A stretch of 64,000 nt of DNA, taken from contig CP129479.1 of the NCBI GenBank assembly GCA_030583865.1, forward strand, positions 1,884,819 to 1,948,818, in the 5' to 3' direction. The stretch is from Thermodesulfobacteriota bacterium. GTDB taxonomy: Bacteria; Desulfobacterota; GWC2-55-46. The first letter of the stretch is position 1; each line of letters opens with the position of its first letter. The translations under genes were made by a program, and so were the position numbers. Shown piece by piece: positions 5,690 to 28,696 of the stretch. The notes beneath the pieces were generated by a model. It was not told the origin of the DNA. It was given only the letters and a program-made list of their open reading frames with translations, and searched no databases.

Positions 5690-6034
5690 TCAGGGCGACT
5701 GCATGAAATCATACCTCTTCTTCCCTTCCCTGCCTTCGGGCAGTATGTATATCTTTTCAGCCTCGATGCTCCCGTCCGGATAAGGCACGCCTTCCACATA
5801 GACCCTCTTTTTCGGTTCGAGGCTGTAATAGGCGGCCTCCCTGCCCGATGCGTCGTAAAAAGAGGTCTCATGCGTGACGGCCACCCTGTGTCGCTCGTTA
5901 AGGACGAAACCCGGGCCGTCGAAGCCGCTCACCACACCCTTCAGAAATTTGTATTCGGCGATGCCGCTCTCCTCCGCGCCGCACGCCGTGGCGAAGGCAA
6001 GGAGGATTATCCCAATCCAAAACGCGTTCCTCAT
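5690..6034 (-). CDS. Small exported protein, PilY2-like position
   Basis: A 114-residue protein with a signal peptide ending ILLAFATACGAEE, possibly a lipobox (ATAC). The mature part is a small beta-rich domain (LKGVVSGFDGPGFVLNER ... VYVEGVPYPDGSIEAEKIYI) reminiscent of OB-fold or DUF5666-type modules. It directly follows pilY1 (the stop of pilY1 and this start overlap by one base), the position occupied by pilY2 in Pseudomonas. Homology to PilY2 is suggested by position and size, not by a decisive motif. Confidence 0.7.
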   Translation of the reverse strand: MRNAFWIGIILLAFATACGAEESGIAEYKFLKGVVSGFDGPGFVLNERHRVAVTHETSFYDASGREAAYYSLEPKKRVYVEGVPYPDGSIEAEKIYILPEGREGKKRYDFMQSP

Positions 6035-9000
6035 CAGCGCACCTCCCTCCAGTAGAGCGGGATGCTCGAACCGCCCTCTTTCACATCGGGCTTTATTATG
6101 GCGCCGCCGGAGCCGATAAGCGCCGAGAACCCGCCCGGGCCGACCGATGTCACGATGCCCGAGGCCATGCCGGGGCCTATCACCTTCGACCTGTCTGTAC
6201 TGTCCTTTACCGGCCCGTTGTCCTCGCCGCCTTCACCGCCGTCCGGGACAGGGTCGTTGTAGGGGTTATAGTTGTAGGCCGCGGCGGCGGTCAGGTAGTC
6301 GACGGCGTAGAGCCTTGAGGTGCCGCTGCTGTCGGTCGAGCATACGCCTGCCGTGGAAGCGGGCTCGTATGTCGTATAGTAGGCTACCTTGCCGAAGACG
6401 GCGGCCCCGGCAAGGGCCTTTTCCCCGCCGTTTTCAAGGTCTATGTACCAGCCGTACACGCCTTCAATGTCCACATAGTCCACGCTGGTGGCGTCCAGGA
6501 GGTCGCCGTCGGTCCTTGCAGTCGTCTGCCCTGCGTCCTTCAGGGCATAGAGCCTGTCGGATACGCCCGTGGATAGCGGGTGCTCGCGGTCGCCCGTTCC
6601 GAAGAAGAGGAGCTCGTAGCCCGGCTCAAGCGCTACCGATGGCTTGTAGAAAATCTTCCTCCCGCCGCCCGCGCTGAATATCTTTTCTCCGTCCCAGGAG
6701 GACGTAAGAGTCGAGCCGAGGCTTAAGCGCCACACGTTCCCGGCAAGGTCGCCCGCGTAGACGGTATCAGCGTAGCCGTTCCCGTTTACGTCAAGCACGG
6801 CCATCTGCGAAGGCATGGACCTCGCCATGCCCGCGTCGTCCGCGCGGGTGTAGCCCCATATCTTCCAGCCGCTACGCGCAAGGCTTATCGAGCCCGGCGT
6901 CGTTATGTCCGCGACCTCTACGACGTACATGCCCCTCCCTGTCGTGGACTCGCCCGCAGGCTCGAGGTCCTCGGCCAGGTTGTCGTATCCGGCGCCTATG
7001 AAGGCCGCGACCTTCCTTTTTACGACCCCGGCGACGTTCACGCGCACCTTTGCGAATACCGGCTCGGACCAGCTCTCCGCAAGCTCGGAGTATTCGGTAT
7101 TCACCCCGGACGGGCTCTCCGTGGAGCTTATCCTCCAGAGATACACAGGCTGGTCCGGGTCTGTCACGTCCAGCGCGTAATAATAGCCCCCCCCCCTACG
7201 CTCCCCGAAGATCACGATGACCCTGTCGCTCCCCGCGTCTATCCTGCCGTCTCCGTTCGCGTCAAAGGTGTATGCCACGGGGGACGAGTCCACGAAATAG
7301 GTGTGGACGGCGGCTGGCATGTGCTTGAGGTTCGGTAGGAGGTCGGGCGGGACAAAGGCCCATCTTTCGCTTCCGTCGCAGTCGCTGAAGGCGTGGAGCA
7401 TGCCGTCGTTCGCCCCGACCAGGACTATCGACTCGTTCGCGCCGCAGTTGCCCTCGTCTACGTACGAGTACCTGTCATACTTCACGACCTGGGGCCTGGA
7501 ATGGAGCACGTCCCCCATTATCCAGTCCCTCTTCTCGTCGGTTACGCCGTTCCCGTCCTCGTCGTAAGAGTCGTATCCGTGCACGTATCCTATGAGCCGG
7601 CCTTTTTCTGTATCGTCCGAGAGCCCGAGCATGGCTGCCGTGACCGCCGCGTTAGAGGCCGAAAAGAGGTTTGTCGGGTCGGTCAGGTCCGCGCTCGAAC
7701 CGGTGTAGGTGTAGATGTTACGGGGGGCGGTCCTGGTAAGGAGGGCCGCCCCGGCGCCGCCGCGCTCCACCTCGCCGCCGTCCGGGGCCGAGCTCCAGAA
7801 CGACACGGCGTTCTCCCTCAGGCTCCCGTCCGAGTTGGTCGCCCTGGCGCCGCTGCTGTCCACCACGTCGCCATCGGCGTCCAGGCCGAATTTCTTGAGG
7901 TTCCCGCTCCAGAAGGCCTTGCCCTTGGGCTTGAAAAAACCCATATATATCCTGTCGCCGGAGTAGGTGCGGTTCTCGGGGCTTACCGGGAGGACGGGCG
8001 CCACGAACGACGTGTTGTCCTCGACTATTATCGAGAGTATCTGCCTCAGGGATTCGCTCAGACCCGCTGTCGAGTCCGCGGAGTAATACTCGCCGCCGCC
8101 GTTATAGGCCGTCTCCCTCAGGAGCTCCTCCGCATACTGCACCCCTGCGAGGCCGAAGCCTATCGTATACGTGACCGCGTACTGCCTGCCGAAGGTCCTC
8201 TCCTGACCCGTATCTGGCAGAAGGTCGGTCTCGTAAATGTATTTGGCGACGTCGTCCAGGTAGTCCGAGCCCTGGGAATCGTAGACCTTATCAGGGTCGC
8301 CCGCCGGCTCGAACCGGTCGCCGTCGCAGTCGCCGTCATTGCAGATGCTCCTCAAGACGGGGCTCCTGTCCTCCGTGGACATGCCGTCGCTTATGAGTAT
8401 TATGTAGTTCTTCTGGCAGCTGTACTCTATGGGGCTCGAATATACGTAGCTCCCGTTGAAGGCCGTCCTCTCGCCCTGGAAATACTTCATTGCCTCGAAC
8501 ATGGTCTCGGCAAGGGGGGTCCAGGTGCTCGGCTCCACGTTGTTTATGGTATTGACGAGCGCGGTCCTGTTGGTGGTAGAGCCCGAGAATATCTCCTCCA
8601 TGTCCTTTACGTAAGCGTCGTATCCATTGTGGCCGTAGCTGTCGCCCACGCCCGCGACGTGTCCGCCGTTCGACTGGTTGAAGAGCATGAGCCCGAACTT
8701 TACTCCCGAGGTGGTGTTGACGAGGCTCGAAAGCACCTCCTGCGCGACCTCCATCTTCGAGCGGTAGCCGCCGCTGGCCGTAAGCCAGTTTACGTAGTTG
8801 CCGAGCGCGAAGCTCCCGGTCGTGTTGGTGCAGGTCCCGTTCGTCCGGAGACGGCCCTGGTAGAGCCCGCTCTCAAGGAGGGCGCTCCTCGCGGAGTTGC
8901 AGCTTATGGAGTTCACGTCGCTTATGTAGTTGACCCACTTTCCCTCTATGGCCCTCCACCTGTACACCCTGTTTGTCTCGCAGGGCTGTCCCTGGCAGCC

Positions 9001-9243
9001 GTCGCCCGGCGGATAGACCGTAGCCGAGTCGTAGGGGCCGCCCGAGACTATCTCATCGTCCATGCTGCCCGAGTTGTCGAGTATGATAAGGACGTTCGGC
9101 TGAATGGTCTCGGTGGACGCGCCGTAGATGACCGTATCGCCCGGGTACTGGTCCAGCGCCGATGAAGCCGGTGCCGCCAGGTGCGAAGAGGCGAGGAACG
9201 CGATGAAGGCGAGGCTAATTTTTAGGGACGATCTTTGCGACAT
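6034..9243 (-). CDS. pilY1: PilY1-like type IV pilus tip protein / adhesin
   Basis: A 1069-residue secreted protein with a signal peptide (ISLAFIAFLASSHLAAPASS). An N-terminal von Willebrand factor A domain starts at NVLIILDNSGSMDDE (about residues 50-64), an intact MIDAS metal site. The C-terminal half carries the PilY1 beta-propeller signatures: VGANDGMLHAF, VFGERRGGGYYYALDVTDP and VLDVNGNGYADTVYAGDLAG, the last being the calcium-binding loop. DANGDGRIDAGSD forms another EF-like loop. PilY1 sits at the pilus tip, affects extension and retraction, and can act as an adhesin and surface sensor. It overlaps pilX upstream by 29 bases and is the largest gene of the minor-pilin operon. Confidence 0.93.
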   Translation of the reverse strand: MSQRSSLKISLAFIAFLASSHLAAPASSALDQYPGDTVIYGASTETIQPNVLIILDNSGSMDDEIVSGGPYDSATVYPPGDGCQGQPCETNRVYRWRAIEGKWVNYISDVNSISCNSARSALLESGLYQGRLRTNGTCTNTTGSFALGNYVNWLTASGGYRSKMEVAQEVLSSLVNTTSGVKFGLMLFNQSNGGHVAGVGDSYGHNGYDAYVKDMEEIFSGSTTNRTALVNTINNVEPSTWTPLAETMFEAMKYFQGERTAFNGSYVYSSPIEYSCQKNYIILISDGMSTEDRSPVLRSICNDGDCDGDRFEPAGDPDKVYDSQGSDYLDDVAKYIYETDLLPDTGQERTFGRQYAVTYTIGFGLAGVQYAEELLRETAYNGGGEYYSADSTAGLSESLRQILSIIVEDNTSFVAPVLPVSPENRTYSGDRIYMGFFKPKGKAFWSGNLKKFGLDADGDVVDSSGARATNSDGSLRENAVSFWSSAPDGGEVERGGAGAALLTRTAPRNIYTYTGSSADLTDPTNLFSASNAAVTAAMLGLSDDTEKGRLIGYVHGYDSYDEDGNGVTDEKRDWIMGDVLHSRPQVVKYDRYSYVDEGNCGANESIVLVGANDGMLHAFSDCDGSERWAFVPPDLLPNLKHMPAAVHTYFVDSSPVAYTFDANGDGRIDAGSDRVIVIFGERRGGGYYYALDVTDPDQPVYLWRISSTESPSGVNTEYSELAESWSEPVFAKVRVNVAGVVKRKVAAFIGAGYDNLAEDLEPAGESTTGRGMYVVEVADITTPGSISLARSGWKIWGYTRADDAGMARSMPSQMAVLDVNGNGYADTVYAGDLAGNVWRLSLGSTLTSSWDGEKIFSAGGGRKIFYKPSVALEPGYELLFFGTGDREHPLSTGVSDRLYALKDAGQTTARTDGDLLDATSVDYVDIEGVYGWYIDLENGGEKALAGAAVFGKVAYYTTYEPASTAGVCSTDSSGTSRLYAVDYLTAAAAYNYNPYNDPVPDGGEGGEDNGPVKDSTDRSKVIGPGMASGIVTSVGPGGFSALIGSGGAIIKPDVKEGGSSIPLYWREVR

Positions 9244-9667
9244 TTACCTCTATCTCCGTTCTTGAGTTGAGAGGGCCGGCGCCTTCCACGTTCACGGCGA
9301 AATAGTTTGCCTCGAACTCGGTCGCGTCCATCCCTGAGCCCCTGGGCGGGTTGCCGCGGGTCAGGTATTCAACCGTACCCGAGGCGTCGCTCGTACCGGA
9401 TTCGAGGCTCACGCCGCCCACGGGTATGGCGACCGACCCCGTGCCTACTGCCGCGTATATGGCCGGGTCGCTCTTGGCGTATTCTACGCCCCTCTCCGCG
9501 GCGTAGAGCGCCTCGTTCATCACCTTGTAGTTCTTTGCGCCGAGCATCTCCGAGCTTGAGGTCGTGAAGACGATCCCTCCCAGCATGCTCATCAAAAAAA
9601 GAGCTATAAGGGCTATGACCAGTGCCATCCCGCTCTCGTTGCCCGCTATCTTCTTCGTCTTCATCAT
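9215..9667 (-). CDS. pilX: PilX-type minor pilin
   Basis: A 150-residue protein starting MMKTKKIAGNESGMALVIAL. As typical of PilX, the type III signal has Gly then Met/Ala-leu-val and lacks the canonical mature Glu5, and the helix continues as FLMSMLGGIVFTTSSSEMLG, followed by NEALYAAERGVEYAKS, a PilX_N hallmark. It forms part of the minor-pilin priming complex with PilV, PilW and PilY1. The start overlaps nothing upstream; pilW ends one base before it. Confidence 0.85.
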   Translation of the reverse strand: MMKTKKIAGNESGMALVIALIALFLMSMLGGIVFTTSSSEMLGAKNYKVMNEALYAAERGVEYAKSDPAIYAAVGTGSVAIPVGGVSLESGTSDASGTVEYLTRGNPPRGSGMDATEFEANYFAVNVEGAGPLNSRTEIEVNVAKIVPKN

Positions 9668-9668
9668 G

Positions 9669-10571
9669 TCACCTGTTCCGTATCCTTGAGATTGCCGCGA
9701 ACTCCCTGGTCTTCGGCGAGCCCGAGAGCGCCGCGGTTTCCACCGTCTCGCCCGATACCGTTATCCGCACGTCGCGGACGGACGAGAGGTCGGCAGGGGC
9801 GGCGGTCTCAGCCGTGCTGCCGTCCAGGACATATCTGAACTGGAGGCCGCCCATGTTGGTTGCAACGATGGAGTCCTCGGACGGCTCGTTGTTCACTATC
9901 CTCATCAGGCAATCGCCTGCGGGACACGGCACGTCCGGGGCGCACGCGGGGGCCGGCCCCATGCAGTACCTCACGGTATTCGGGAAGGTATCGGGCAGGG
10001 ACTGCCCGGTCCTGGCGATAACGAACCCCCTCTTGAACTCCACGGCGCCTCCATCGAACTGCGGACTCAAGGTTATGCTCGGGGCTGCGGCGTTTTTGGA
10101 GACCACCGTATACGCGGTCTCCGCAGGCTGGGCCCGCTCGCCGGGGCTTAATATCCTTACCGAGTCCCCGGCGGCAAAGCCGTCGAGATCGCGCTCGGAC
10201 GAAACCGCGAGCGTGAAGGCGGCCCCTGACAGGATATCGACGGTCAGGTCGGCGTCCACCCTGCAAACGGCCCCGTTAGCGGCGGCGGTATTTATCGTAA
10301 TGAGGTCGCTCGCCGCAGGGCCTGCCCCGTCCATTGCCGATTCGATGGGGTCCTGCCCGTCCGGCACCATGAGCCCGGCCATCCTCAGGTCCTTGAGCAT
10401 GCTTTGGACCGCGAGCCTCAGGTTCTGCTGCACGTCAGCGACGTCCGTCTCGATATAGGCGACCTTGCGCTGGGTATTGTAGACCGAGAATATCGCAGCA
10501 GTGACCAGCCCGAGGATGCCCATTGCTATGATGAGCTCTACGAGCGTAAAGCCTTTGTCGTCCGTTCTCAT
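9669..10571 (-). CDS. pilW: PilW-type minor pilin
   Basis: A 300-residue prepilin: MRTDDKGFTLVELIIAMGIL carries the prepilin-peptidase cleavage site (G-F, Glu5), and the helix leads into NTQRKVAYIETDVADVQQNL and LRLAVQSMLKDLRMAGL, the normal PilW pattern. The large C-terminal region is beta-rich with two pairs of Cys (CMGPAPACAPDVPCPAGDC), likely disulfide-bonded. It is read between pilV and pilX. Confidence 0.88.
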   Translation of the reverse strand: MRTDDKGFTLVELIIAMGILGLVTAAIFSVYNTQRKVAYIETDVADVQQNLRLAVQSMLKDLRMAGLMVPDGQDPIESAMDGAGPAASDLITINTAAANGAVCRVDADLTVDILSGAAFTLAVSSERDLDGFAAGDSVRILSPGERAQPAETAYTVVSKNAAAPSITLSPQFDGGAVEFKRGFVIARTGQSLPDTFPNTVRYCMGPAPACAPDVPCPAGDCLMRIVNNEPSEDSIVATNMGGLQFRYVLDGSTAETAAPADLSSVRDVRITVSGETVETAALSGSPKTREFAAISRIRNR

Positions 10572-10584
10572 CCCTTGCCCCGCC

Positions 10585-10989
10585 TCATAGCACGCTCTTA
10601 AGCGATGAATACCTCGCCATGCGTCCGCTGCTTGTCACCACCACCTCTATGCTCGCAACCCCGGCGACCGGGGAGTTGGGAGCTACCGAGTAGACTGCAG
10701 AATACCTCCTGCCCTGCACTACAAGGCTTATTTCGGCAGAGGACGGGTCAAGGTCGTAGACCGCGTTCGCGATGCTGGACGAGAAGACCGGGTCTGAGCC
10801 GTCCCTCGACATCAACTCCTCGAGCACCGAAACAGCGACCGAGCTCTCGGCGGCCACCATGTGCGCGAACCGTCCTGACTTTATTCCAGTCGTCATCATC
10901 GTGGCAACGCCCAGTATGCCGACCGAAAGTATCGACATGGCGATGAGCAGCTCAAGAAGCGTATAACCTTTATCGCCGCATTTGCCCAT
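10585..10989 (-). CDS. pilV: PilV-type minor pilin
   Basis: Starting at ATG 10989 (preceded by GGGGGA as ribosome site) the 134-residue protein begins MGKCGDKGYTLLELLIAMSI, an ideal prepilin leader with G-Y cleavage and Glu5, then LSVGILGVATMMTTGIKSG. A longer open frame upstream contains the promoter and is not coding. It is the first gene of the minor-pilin operon and lies 38 bases downstream of a sigma-54-type promoter. Confidence 0.87.
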   Translation of the reverse strand: MGKCGDKGYTLLELLIAMSILSVGILGVATMMTTGIKSGRFAHMVAAESSVAVSVLEELMSRDGSDPVFSSSIANAVYDLDPSSAEISLVVQGRRYSAVYSVAPNSPVAGVASIEVVVTSSGRMARYSSLKSVL

Positions 10990-11025
10990 AGGTCCCCCGT
11001 AATTTAGAGTGTCGTGAGGAATAAT

Positions 11026-11041
11026 CGCAATACCCATGCCA
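11026..11041 (-). promoter_or_regulatory. Sigma-54 (-24/-12) promoter of the minor-pilin operon
   Basis: On the minus strand the site reads TGGCATGGGTATTGCG, matching TGGCAY-N5-TTGC with the invariant GG and GC spaced by 10 bases. It lies about 38 bases before the pilV ATG. A sigma-54 activator gene ends 170 bases upstream. Confidence 0.75.
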
Positions 11042-11111
11042 TGCCCATAGACGCGGCTAACCACTTGTTTCTGCTATTTAATTTTTCTTGGGCTGGATTT
11101 CGAAGCTGCGA

Positions 11112-11208
11112 TTGGTGTGCGGTTTTGGCACACCCGTATGATGTGCCTTTGTGACTTTAATCACTAAATATGTGGAATTATTTGAAATTCGTTGGTGTGC
11201 GCTTTTGG
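11112..11208. promoter_or_regulatory. Paired direct repeats, candidate upstream activator sites
   Basis: TTGGTGTGCGGTTTTGG (11112-11128) recurs as TTGGTGTGCGCTTTTGG (11192-11208), one mismatch, exactly 80 bases apart (about 8 helical turns on the same DNA face). The first overlaps an inverted repeat (GGTGTGC ... GCACACC). They lie about 70-170 bases upstream of the sigma-54 promoter, the usual distance for enhancer-binding proteins. Confidence 0.6.
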
Positions 11209-11212
11209 ACGG

Positions 11213-12520
11213 TCAATCCACAGAGTACTTTTCGAGCTTCCTTAGAAGCGCCCTTCTGCTAATCCCTAATGCCTTTGCAGCCTTTGTCCTGTTCCCCCCG
11301 AATTCGTCGAGGACGGCAGTTATGTGCCCTTTTATGACGTCTTCGAGCTTTTTCGGGAACGGCCCGGCACTGCTGGCCCCTGGCAAGGACTCTATTATTT
11401 CCGCGCCGAGGTGCTCTATCTTTACGAATGGCTCGCTGGCGAGTATGGCCGCGTGCTCGATAACATTTTCGAGCTCCCTGATGTTGCCGGGCCAGTCGTA
11501 GGCCATGAGCGCCGCCTGTGCGGGCCGCGACACGCCCGCAACCTCTTTTCCGGTCTTTTTGCGGAAATTATCGAGTATGTGCCTTGCGAGGAGCGGTATA
11601 TCGTCCTTCCGCTCCCGCAGAGGCGGCACATGTACCGAAAGCGGCGTAAGCCTGAAATACAGGTCCTCCCTGAACCTGCCCTCGGCTACTTCCTTTTTCA
11701 GGTCCTTGTTGGTCGCGGCGATCACCCTGCACGAGGTCTTGAGGGGCTTTGCGCTACCGAGCTTCCTGAACTCGCCGTTCTGAAGCACCCTCAAAAGGTG
11801 CGGCTGGAACGAAAGCGGCAAGTCTCCTATCTCGTCGAGGAAGACTACACCTTCGCCAGCGGTCTCGAATACGCCCGTCTTGTCGGAATTGGCGCCCGTG
11901 AAGGCGCCCTTTACATGGCCAAAAAACTCGGATTCCACGAGGCTCTCGACGAGGCCGCCGCAATTGCAGGCCACGAAAGGCTGACCGGAAAGGGGGCTCA
12001 GCGAGTGCAGCGCCTTGGCAACGGCCTCCTTGCCCGTGCCGGTCTCCCCGGTAACGGTCACCGTCTTGTAATACGGGGCTATCTTTCTCAGGAACCTGAA
12101 TAGCTCGAGCATTCGGGGGTTCCTGGCGACGATGCCGGCATAGGTGTATTTCTCGACGAGGAGCCTCTCCAACTCGTCGGTTTCGCTCATCAGGTTTACG
12201 TGCGCGACGACCGACTCGACTGCCGCCCTGAACCTCTCCCTGTCTATGGGCCGGGTAAAACAGGCCGTCGCGCCCATCTTCAAATGACCGATGGCGTCCG
12301 CGCACCTTTCCCCGACCACGAATATCTCGGCCCTCGGGTCGGCTGCCGTTATCGATGGAATAAGCTTTACCGACTCTTCAAGGATTATGAGATGGTAGGA
12401 GCCGCTGAGGGCCTTCAGCACAAGCTCTTCTTTTTTACAGGTCTTCTCGACGGAATGCCCGGAAAGCAAATCCCGGATATCCGACGCAGTACCTTCTCCG
12501 TACAATAGTACCTTGAGCAT
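11213..12520 (-). CDS. NtrC/PilR-like sigma-54 activator with a degenerate receiver domain
   Basis: The start is set at ATG 12520 (AGGAAAGAG ribosome site), giving 435 residues. Residues 1-115 form a receiver-like domain, but the phospho-acceptor region reads LIILEESVKLI (Glu where Asp is expected), the N-terminal acidic pair is missing and the conserved Lys is Arg (FTRPID). An AAA+ domain follows with Walker A GETGTGKE, the sigma-54 contact loop GAFTGA, Walker B VVFLDEIGD and the arginine-finger region FREDLYFRL. A Fis-type helix-turn-helix ends the protein (NRTKAAKALGISRRALLRKL). It should activate the sigma-54 promoter of the adjacent minor-pilin operon, probably without normal aspartate phosphorylation. 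Confidence 0.9.
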   Translation of the reverse strand: MLKVLLYGEGTASDIRDLLSGHSVEKTCKKEELVLKALSGSYHLIILEESVKLIPSITAADPRAEIFVVGERCADAIGHLKMGATACFTRPIDRERFRAAVESVVAHVNLMSETDELERLLVEKYTYAGIVARNPRMLELFRFLRKIAPYYKTVTVTGETGTGKEAVAKALHSLSPLSGQPFVACNCGGLVESLVESEFFGHVKGAFTGANSDKTGVFETAGEGVVFLDEIGDLPLSFQPHLLRVLQNGEFRKLGSAKPLKTSCRVIAATNKDLKKEVAEGRFREDLYFRLTPLSVHVPPLRERKDDIPLLARHILDNFRKKTGKEVAGVSRPAQAALMAYDWPGNIRELENVIEHAAILASEPFVKIEHLGAEIIESLPGASSAGPFPKKLEDVIKGHITAVLDEFGGNRTKAAKALGISRRALLRKLEKYSVD

Positions 12521-13231: not shown

Positions 13232-14481
13232 CGGTTCATCCCCACGCCCGTGGGGAACACACAAACCCCGCGCCCGCGCCGATTGCCGCGCTCGGTTCAT
13301 CCCCACGCCCGTGGGGAACACAGCTCGTCATACCCGGCCCACAGCTCGACCTGCGGTTCATCCCCACGCCCGTGGGGAACACTTTACCCGGATTTCCTGC
13401 ACCGCGAAGTCGAACGGTTCATCCCCACGCCCGTGGGGAACACGGGACGTAATAGTGGACTATGTAGGCGTTCAGCGGTTCATCCCCACGCCCGTGGGGA
13501 ACACGAGGATATATCCGCATACATATTGAACAGAGTCGGTTCATCCCCACGCCCGTGGGGAACACGCATAGTGACCCGTGAGGTCTATTTGAGCGACCGG
13601 TTCATCCCCACGCCCGTGGGGAACACCAAAAGTGTAGACCCGCCGACCCTCGGGTTGACGGTTCATCCCCACGCCCGTGGGGAACACGAAGACGTTCCGC
13701 CGGTGAAATACTATGTCCTCGGTTCATCCCCACGCCCGTGGGGAACACTCGTAGAAGGGTATGTATTCGAGCACCCTGTCGAGGTTCATCCCCACGCCCG
13801 TGGGGAACACTAGAAATCATCACGAGTGGCCCTAAACCACATCGGTTCATCCCCACGCCCGTGGGGAACACCCCGGTGATGCTCGTCGAACTTTTTTTTC
13901 GTGCGGTTCATCCCCACGCCCGTGGGGAACACATGTAACCATGCTCCGGAAAGAAACGTTTGAACGGTTCATCCCCACGCCCGTGGGGAACACCATGGCG
14001 GGCTTCTATCTCAACCTCGTCCTTACGGTTCATCCCCACGCCCGTGGGGAACACGCCCTGCACGCGCTGGAGGGCTTTTAAAAAGACGGTTCATCCCCAC
14101 GCCCGTGGGGAACACTTGCCCGTCTCCGTTTCCGGCTGCTCGTGATGCGGTTCATCCCCACGCCCGTGGGGAACACTCTCGGTGCAAACACCATTGCATA
14201 TCAGCCTGCGGTTCATCCCCACGCCCGTGGGGAACACTCTCGGTGCAAACACCATTGCATATCAGCCTGCGGTTCATCCCCACGCCCGTGGGGAACACAC
14301 AAGCACCAGAAGTGGGAATATTTTTTCCTGCGGTTCATCCCCACGCCCGTGGGGAACACTTTTTCAGTGCATGAAGCACCTCCGTTCTAGCCGGTTCATC
14401 CCCACGCCCGTGGGGAACACCCAAAGAGCCGCCCGATGAACTCTATCATCTCCGGTTCATCCCCACGCCCGTGGGGAACAC
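13232..14481 (-). CRISPR. CRISPR array, 21 repeats, type I-E-like repeat
   Basis: A 29-base repeat (minus-strand form GTGTTCCCCACGGGCGTGG + GGATGAACCG) occurs 21 times with 20 spacers of 32 bases (one of 33). The repeat ends with the GGGGATAAACCG-like tail typical of type I-E and folds into a perfect hairpin (CCCCACG/CGTGGGG). Repeats begin at 13232, 13293, 13354 and so on every 61 bases; the repeat at 13782 has a changed first base. Spacers 14177-14208 and 14238-14269 are identical. The repeat orientation puts the leader at the high-coordinate end and transcription on the minus strand. No cas gene is present within this window. Confidence 0.97.
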
Positions 14482-25737: not shown

Positions 25738-26019
25738 ATGGCCAAGGCACTCACAAAATCCCAAATAGCTGAAAGCATCGCCAAGAAAAACGGTGTTACA
25801 AAAAAGCTGGCCGCGGATGTGATTGCAGCTCTGACTCAGCTGGCCTATAAAGAGGTCAAAAACGCTTTTACGCTACCAGGAATCGGCAAGCTCGTTCTTG
25901 TTAAGAGAAAGGCAAGGATGGGCAGAAACCCCCAGACAGGAAAGGCTATAAAGATTCCCGCTAAGAAGGTCGTGAAGTTCAGGGTGGCAAAGGCATGCAA
26001 GGATGCGGTGCTGGGGTAG
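25738..26019 (+). CDS. HU-family DNA-binding protein
   Basis: A 93-residue HU/IHF-fold protein: KSQIAESIAKKNGVTKKLAA, then FTLPGIGKLVLVKRKARMGR, then NPQTGKAIKIPAKKVVKFRV. The arm tip has the NPQTG sequence that intercalates DNA. ATG 25738 follows GAAGGAGAT. A terminator follows at 26057. It is a divergent HU of the kind encoded as an extra copy in many deltaproteobacteria. Confidence 0.92.
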   Translation: MAKALTKSQIAESIAKKNGVTKKLAADVIAALTQLAYKEVKNAFTLPGIGKLVLVKRKARMGRNPQTGKAIKIPAKKVVKFRVAKACKDAVLG

Positions 26020-28387: not shown

Positions 28388-28696
28388 CTAAACTGCCGCT
28401 GTCGGCGCCTGCGCGGGGGCGCCCTGGTTTATGGCCTTCTTGAGGAGCTGGCTCGCCTTGAAGGTCATGACCCTGCGCTCTTCTATGGTTATCTCGCTGC
28501 CGGTCTGGGGGTTTCTGCCCCTCCTGGCCCTCTTCTGGCGGATGGTAAAATTGCCGAAACCGGAGATCTTGACCTTCTCGCCCGTCTCAAGGGTCGTCTT
28601 GATGGTCTCGAAAATCTCCTCGATAACGGTGGATACGTCCTTCTTTGAAAAGCCTACCTTCTCGAAGACAATCTCTACGATATCCGCCTTGGTCAT
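28388..28696 (-). CDS. ihfA: Integration host factor subunit alpha
   Basis: A 102-residue HU/IHF-fold protein: MTKADIVEIVFEKVGFSKKD, then GEKVKISGFGNFTIRQKRAR, then RGRNPQTGSEITIEERRVMT and the helical end FKASQLLKKAIN. The position after pheT is the standard place for ihfA. It bends DNA and would assist sigma-54 promoters such as that of the minor pilins. Confidence 0.93.
   Translation of the reverse strand: MTKADIVEIVFEKVGFSKKDVSTVIEEIFETIKTTLETGEKVKISGFGNFTIRQKRARRGRNPQTGSEITIEERRVMTFKASQLLKKAINQGAPAQAPTAAV

Follow-up and report, generated by a model that had tools for sequence, protein, structure and literature searches.

What controls the transcription of a type IV pilus tip operon that lies directly behind the gene of a sigma-54 activator? 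Minor pilins and the tip adhesin PilY1 govern pilus priming, adhesion and surface sensing, and their genes were found together in the stretch of 64,000 nucleotides analysed here (the window), which is part of the complete, 2,751,635-bp genome of a Thermodesulfobacteriota bacterium. On the minus strand, the activator gene, which we call EBP-A (11213..12520, ATG start at 12520), is followed by an intergenic region of 223 bp and then by a pilV-like minor pilin gene, the first of the operon (10585..10989, ATG at 10989; N_methyl, 1.5e-7), a pilW-like gene (9669..10571; N_methyl, 5e-8), a pilX-like gene (9215..9667; PilX_N, 8e-9) and pilY1 (6034..9243; T4P_PilY1, 4e-14). A DUF5666 gene (5690..6034, minus), found in the same gene order in a second locus (L042), is probably a continuation of the operon. 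A scan of positions 10980-11260 revealed no sigma-70-like promoter and no intrinsic terminator. A short distance upstream of the activator gene, at 13232-14481, lies an array of some 20 CRISPR repeats, each 29 nt long (CGGTTCATCCCCACGCCCGTGGGGAACAC) and recurring with a 61-nt period; the array is type I-E-like by appearance, and one of its spacers is duplicated in tandem (14148 and 14209).

The original prediction had placed a sigma-54 promoter, TGGCAT-N5-TTGC, 38 bases before pilV and two 17-bp direct repeats, 80 bases apart, upstream of it, and its coordinates and distances for these elements proved correct. The promoter TGGCATGGGTATTGC (11041..11027, minus) reads TGGCAT-GGGTA-TTGC, contains the GG-N10-GC core, and ends 38 bp before the ATG of pilV, which would put the start of the pilV transcript near 11015, about 12 nt past the promoter. 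Its sequence, orientation and distance to the gene are those of a sigma-54 promoter, and the genome encodes one RpoN (Sigma54_DBD). It was the sole exact match to TGGYAY-N5-TTGC in the window. Genome-wide, TGGCAY-N5-TTGC occurred 19 times, versus three for the reversed control pattern, and another of these matches (genome position 1145465) lies directly behind the genome's own pilR-like gene, thus serving as an internal control. A single exact match is modest evidence by itself, and the weight therefore rests on context and on conservation across relatives.

The proximal repeat (TTGGTGTGCGGTTTTGG, 11112-11128; CCAAAACCGCACACCAA on the minus strand) and the distal repeat (TTGGTGTGCGCTTTTGG, 11192-11208; minus strand CCAAAAGCGCACACCAA) have the same orientation, are spaced 80 bp start to start and are identical at 16 of 17 positions. 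The proximal copy lies inside a perfect 7+7 inverted repeat, GGTGTGC-N7-GCACACC (11114-11134). When the complete genome was searched for the 17-bp motif, no copy with up to two mismatches was found other than these two at the pilV locus, and the five matches at three mismatches equalled the control level. Both repeats have counterparts behind orthologous genes. A repeated motif about 80-200 bp upstream, conserved together with the activator, is what is expected of enhancer sites, and we refer to the repeats as predicted enhancer boxes. Between them and the promoter, 29 bp upstream of the -24 element, is an IHF-like box, AAACAAGTGGTTA (11058..11070, minus), which matches eight of the nine consensus positions of WATCARNNNNTTR and is a predicted IHF site. 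The ihfA gene, reported earlier to be in the window, is indeed present at 28427..28696 (minus; NF001401, 129.9 bits against a cut-off of 111) and is not part of the cassette. A second, diverged gene of the HU/IHF family near ihfA (25750-26010, plus strand) scored under the cut-off of every named model.

The assignment of the gene beyond the repeats to the sigma-54 activators was borne out by the domains of its product, namely an AAA+ sigma-54 domain with a GAFTGA motif (Sigma54_activat, 3e-62) and a Fis-type helix-turn-helix (HTH_8, 7e-13), together with a receiver-like N-terminal domain that lacks the phosphorylation residues. An alignment of EBP-A orthologues with six PilR proteins showed that the acidic pair, the phospho-aspartate and its loop, the switch Ser/Thr and the lysine are all lost; these losses were taken from the orthologue rows, and the window protein showed the same losses in a separate alignment. 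A Pfam receiver match was obtained for only 4 of 15 EBP-A members. The predicted structure retains the (beta-alpha)5 receiver-like fold, and NtrC1, NtrX, LuxO, FleQ and VpsR were matched by the model as a whole. Because the receiver phosphorylation residues are lost, we did not file EBP-A as a two-component response regulator of the NtrC/PilR type. It is not PilR, as EBP-A forms a separate clade (100/100), no PilS kinase gene adjoins it and PilS-PilR is encoded elsewhere in the same genome. The EBP-A recognition helix is conserved across cargo types, unlike that of PilR. Since the predicted receiver fold is kept but its residues are not, EBP-A is probably not under the control of a histidine kinase; protein level, a partner protein or a bound ligand probably determines how active it is. 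By analogy, its input may be c-di-GMP, to which FleQ and VpsR respond, a partner protein, or simple abundance. Receivers that lack the aspartate have been described as a class (PMC4395418).

Conservation of the cassette was examined in relatives. A protein search of 59 genomes recovered EBP-A orthologues at 53-83% identity, with other sigma-54 activators at 48% or less, and EBP-A was present in 16 of the 48 genomes of the order. Among 395 genomes drawn from the phylum, one additional lineage (G333) had EBP-A, and a scan of named genomes, which gave mostly other activators, yielded a single informative locus in BMS3Bbin08 (L069), whose EBP-A relative is at about 50%. Boxes similar to TGCCAAAACCGCACACC or CCAAAACCGCACACC and a -24/-12 element were found at similar spacing in 17 of the 18 EBP-A loci with readable downstream DNA, most of them with an IHF-like box in between. 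These loci span nine genera of one order, the other lineage of the phylum and BMS3Bbin08, and the anchors for the promoter positions in relatives were checked by eye. At the remaining locus (L050) the activator is present, but no recognisable boxes or promoter were seen behind its gene. Some relatives have TTCC or TTTC in place of TTGC at the -12 element. Distances from the start of the proximal box to the -24 element were 78-97 bp in 13 loci, and 64 and 82 bp in the two distant ones. For the start of the IHF-like box the distance was 27-30 bp, or 18-19 bp in the chaperone-usher group described below and in BMS3Bbin08, where this box is nearer by one helical turn. Spacing between the two enhancer boxes is 80-117 bp, and 33 and 45 bp in the distant loci; because these values vary, the idea that the boxes keep a fixed helical phase was dropped.

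On the fetched contigs, the only boxes with up to two mismatches were those behind the regulator gene and, in two loci, those overlapping its final codons. They track EBP-A orthologues even where the remaining intergenic DNA could not be aligned and the downstream genes differ. Compared with dinucleotide shuffles, the 17 loci, which are those with a recognisable promoter, contained 24 such boxes upstream of the promoter (0.04 expected) and 15 well-placed IHF-like boxes (0.17 expected), the IHF offsets having been picked after inspection; for 11 genus-level representatives the figures were 15 boxes against 0.02 and 10 IHF-like boxes against 0.10. The idea that IHF may take part, put forward tentatively in the original prediction, gains support from the conserved position of its box. 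In the nearest relative (L064 of G001, about 9750-11050), many small indels shift the frame of the activator gene, through either real decay or a local assembly fault; the pil operon and both boxes of that locus are intact.

The same operon was also found under another regulator. In eight genomes, G005 of the same genus and G010, G013, G019, G025, G032, G037 and G039, pilV-W-X-Y1 lies directly behind genes for a PilS-like kinase and a PilR-like regulator. These PilR-linked operons have their own strong -24/-12 element, with an IHF-like box just upstream in most, and IHF-like boxes are therefore not specific to the EBP-A cassette; no boxes of the EBP-A type were found at these promoters. In the window's genome and in two others of its genus (G003, G004), the genes after PilS-PilR form a different pilin operon, and in two genomes (G007, G035) pilV-W-X-Y1 has neither regulator adjacent. 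Among close relatives, the operon can thus have either of two sigma-54 control regions, that of the EBP-A cassette or that behind PilS-PilR. Most PilR-linked promoters (L178-L193) share a TGCATAGTTT-like sequence near the pilR stop codon, which is likely to be a PilR site in this order, and in most an IHF-like AATCAA-N4-TTA box precedes the -24 element by about 18 bp. No TGCATAGTTT-like box was found in the region upstream of pilV in the window. The second pilin operon behind PilS-PilR in the window's own genome includes an open frame of about 1450 residues with a prepilin N-terminus (L189, 5423-9793), which has counterparts in L190 and L191.

Taken together, we consider it probable (roughly 0.88) that EBP-A, the twin boxes, an IHF bend and the promoter form a self-contained sigma-54 cassette for the type IV pilus tip operon. 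We infer that EBP-A would bind the two same-orientation boxes TGCCAAAACCGCACACC between its own stop codon and pilV, and that IHF would introduce a bend at its own box, 29 bp upstream of the -24 element. The bend would bring the AAA+ oligomer to the sigma-54 polymerase at TGGCATGGGTATTGC, where the AAA+ ring would open the complex, and transcription would run from about 11015 through pilV-W-X-pilY1 and probably the next genes too. The earlier proposal that the adjacent regulator directly controls PilY1 and the minor pilins is thus strongly supported at the level of sequence, as the boxes follow EBP-A orthologues and are absent at PilR-linked promoters.

Other readings of the region were weighed. 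The promoter could be real and driven by PilR or by another of the roughly 18 sigma-54 activator-like proteins matched in this genome, with the boxes binding something else; the number of candidates and the position of PilR directly before the same operon in relatives speak for this. We nevertheless regard it as unlikely, since the boxes follow the EBP-A family whatever gene is downstream and are missing from PilR-linked promoters, the TGCATAGTTT-like sequence was not seen at pilV, and the recognition helices of EBP-A and PilR differ. That the repeats are instead a terminator, an RNA hairpin or a repressor site, with read-through or another promoter providing for transcription of the pil operon, is suggested by the perfect inverted repeat around the proximal copy. 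The absence of a T-tract and of a terminator call, together with the weak symmetry of the family motif, led us to reject the terminator or hairpin reading, and a conserved -24/-12 element follows the boxes in 17 loci while no sigma-70-like promoter was found, which makes this group of explanations less probable still. Loose matches to the sigma-54 consensus do arise by chance (five with zero or one mismatch in the window, 8.4 expected). However, chance resemblance of both promoter and repeats was rejected as extremely improbable, because the box is unique to this locus in the genome and confined to EBP-A loci, position and sequence are kept across divergent genera, and the expectation from shuffles is near zero.

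The genes found behind the EBP-A cassette differ among genomes. Members of the window's genus (G001, G003, G004), as well as G021 and G026, have it before pilV-W, and X-Y1 where the contig permits. Six other genera of the family have a secreted protein in this place, mostly of 330-370 residues (L014, L045-L049, L052), with no Pfam or NCBIfam match in those scanned. In the chaperone-usher group (G032 and G041) the cassette lies beside genes for an outer-membrane usher and spore-coat-U proteins and before a small secreted protein, and in G333 before a caspase-like protein with Peptidase_C14 (3e-22) and Lcl_C domains (L177, 2702-4567). Activators linked to pil genes group in a single clade (100/100) that is nested among activators with other cargo, a pattern that fits a single capture of the pil operon. 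We put at even odds a scenario in which a portable cassette (pseudo-receiver activator, twin enhancers, IHF box and sigma-54 promoter), with other secreted or surface proteins as its cargo elsewhere, captured the operon of the pilus tip in this lineage, uncoupling PilY1 and the minor pilins from PilS-PilR and placing them under a non-phosphorelay signal. If so, the output of the pilus tip would be controlled separately from the remaining pilus genes.

Three findings go beyond the original prediction: the degenerate receiver of EBP-A, a cassette that is shared across the family while its cargo changes, and the contrasting PilS-PilR control of the operon in relatives. Confinement of the box to the pilV operon offers a clean one-regulator, one-target system, and the box allows the targets of EBP-A to be read from the sequence of any genome in which it occurs. 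The same operon lies behind PilS-PilR in a congener, so that close relatives provide a natural experiment on the replacement of one regulator by another at a conserved operon. That sigma-54 governs functions of the cell surface is a general theme (Francke 2011, PMC3162934; Desulfovibrio regulome, PMC4641369), and both of these studies likewise describe neighbouring activators, exterior-related targets and predicted upstream sites; neither the EBP-A family nor its box is described in them as far as searched, or in the titles, abstracts and passages searched more widely, which lay mostly outside subscription journals.

Several known systems resemble this one in part. FleQ and VpsR (PDB 8p53 and 7v2b) also combine a receiver-like domain with AAA+ and helix-turn-helix domains and have surface-related targets; at about 24-32% identity in alignments to the predicted structure, the likeness appears to be at the level of fold only. 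In Pseudomonas aeruginosa, AlgR and Vfr act on fimU-pilVWXY1Y2E (PMC8787478) and thus likewise give minor pilins and PilY1 a dedicated control apart from the major pilin, but unlike EBP-A they are not sigma-54 activators. PilS-PilR control of type IV pilus genes (P. aeruginosa, PMC6058289; L178-L188 in relatives) likewise joins an NtrC-type activator, a sigma-54 promoter and pilus genes, and the loci of relatives share with the EBP-A cassette an IHF-like box upstream of the promoter. However, EBP-A lacks the intact receiver and the partner kinase gene of PilR, and its recognition helix and boxes are different. Similar in target is HsfA, the NtrC-like regulator of the HsfB-HsfA pair of Myxococcus xanthus, which binds pilY1 promoter regions directly (PMC9109919). 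HsfA is a phosphorelay regulator with several targets, whereas EBP-A is an orphan, its receiver is degenerate and a single target site could be detected for it.
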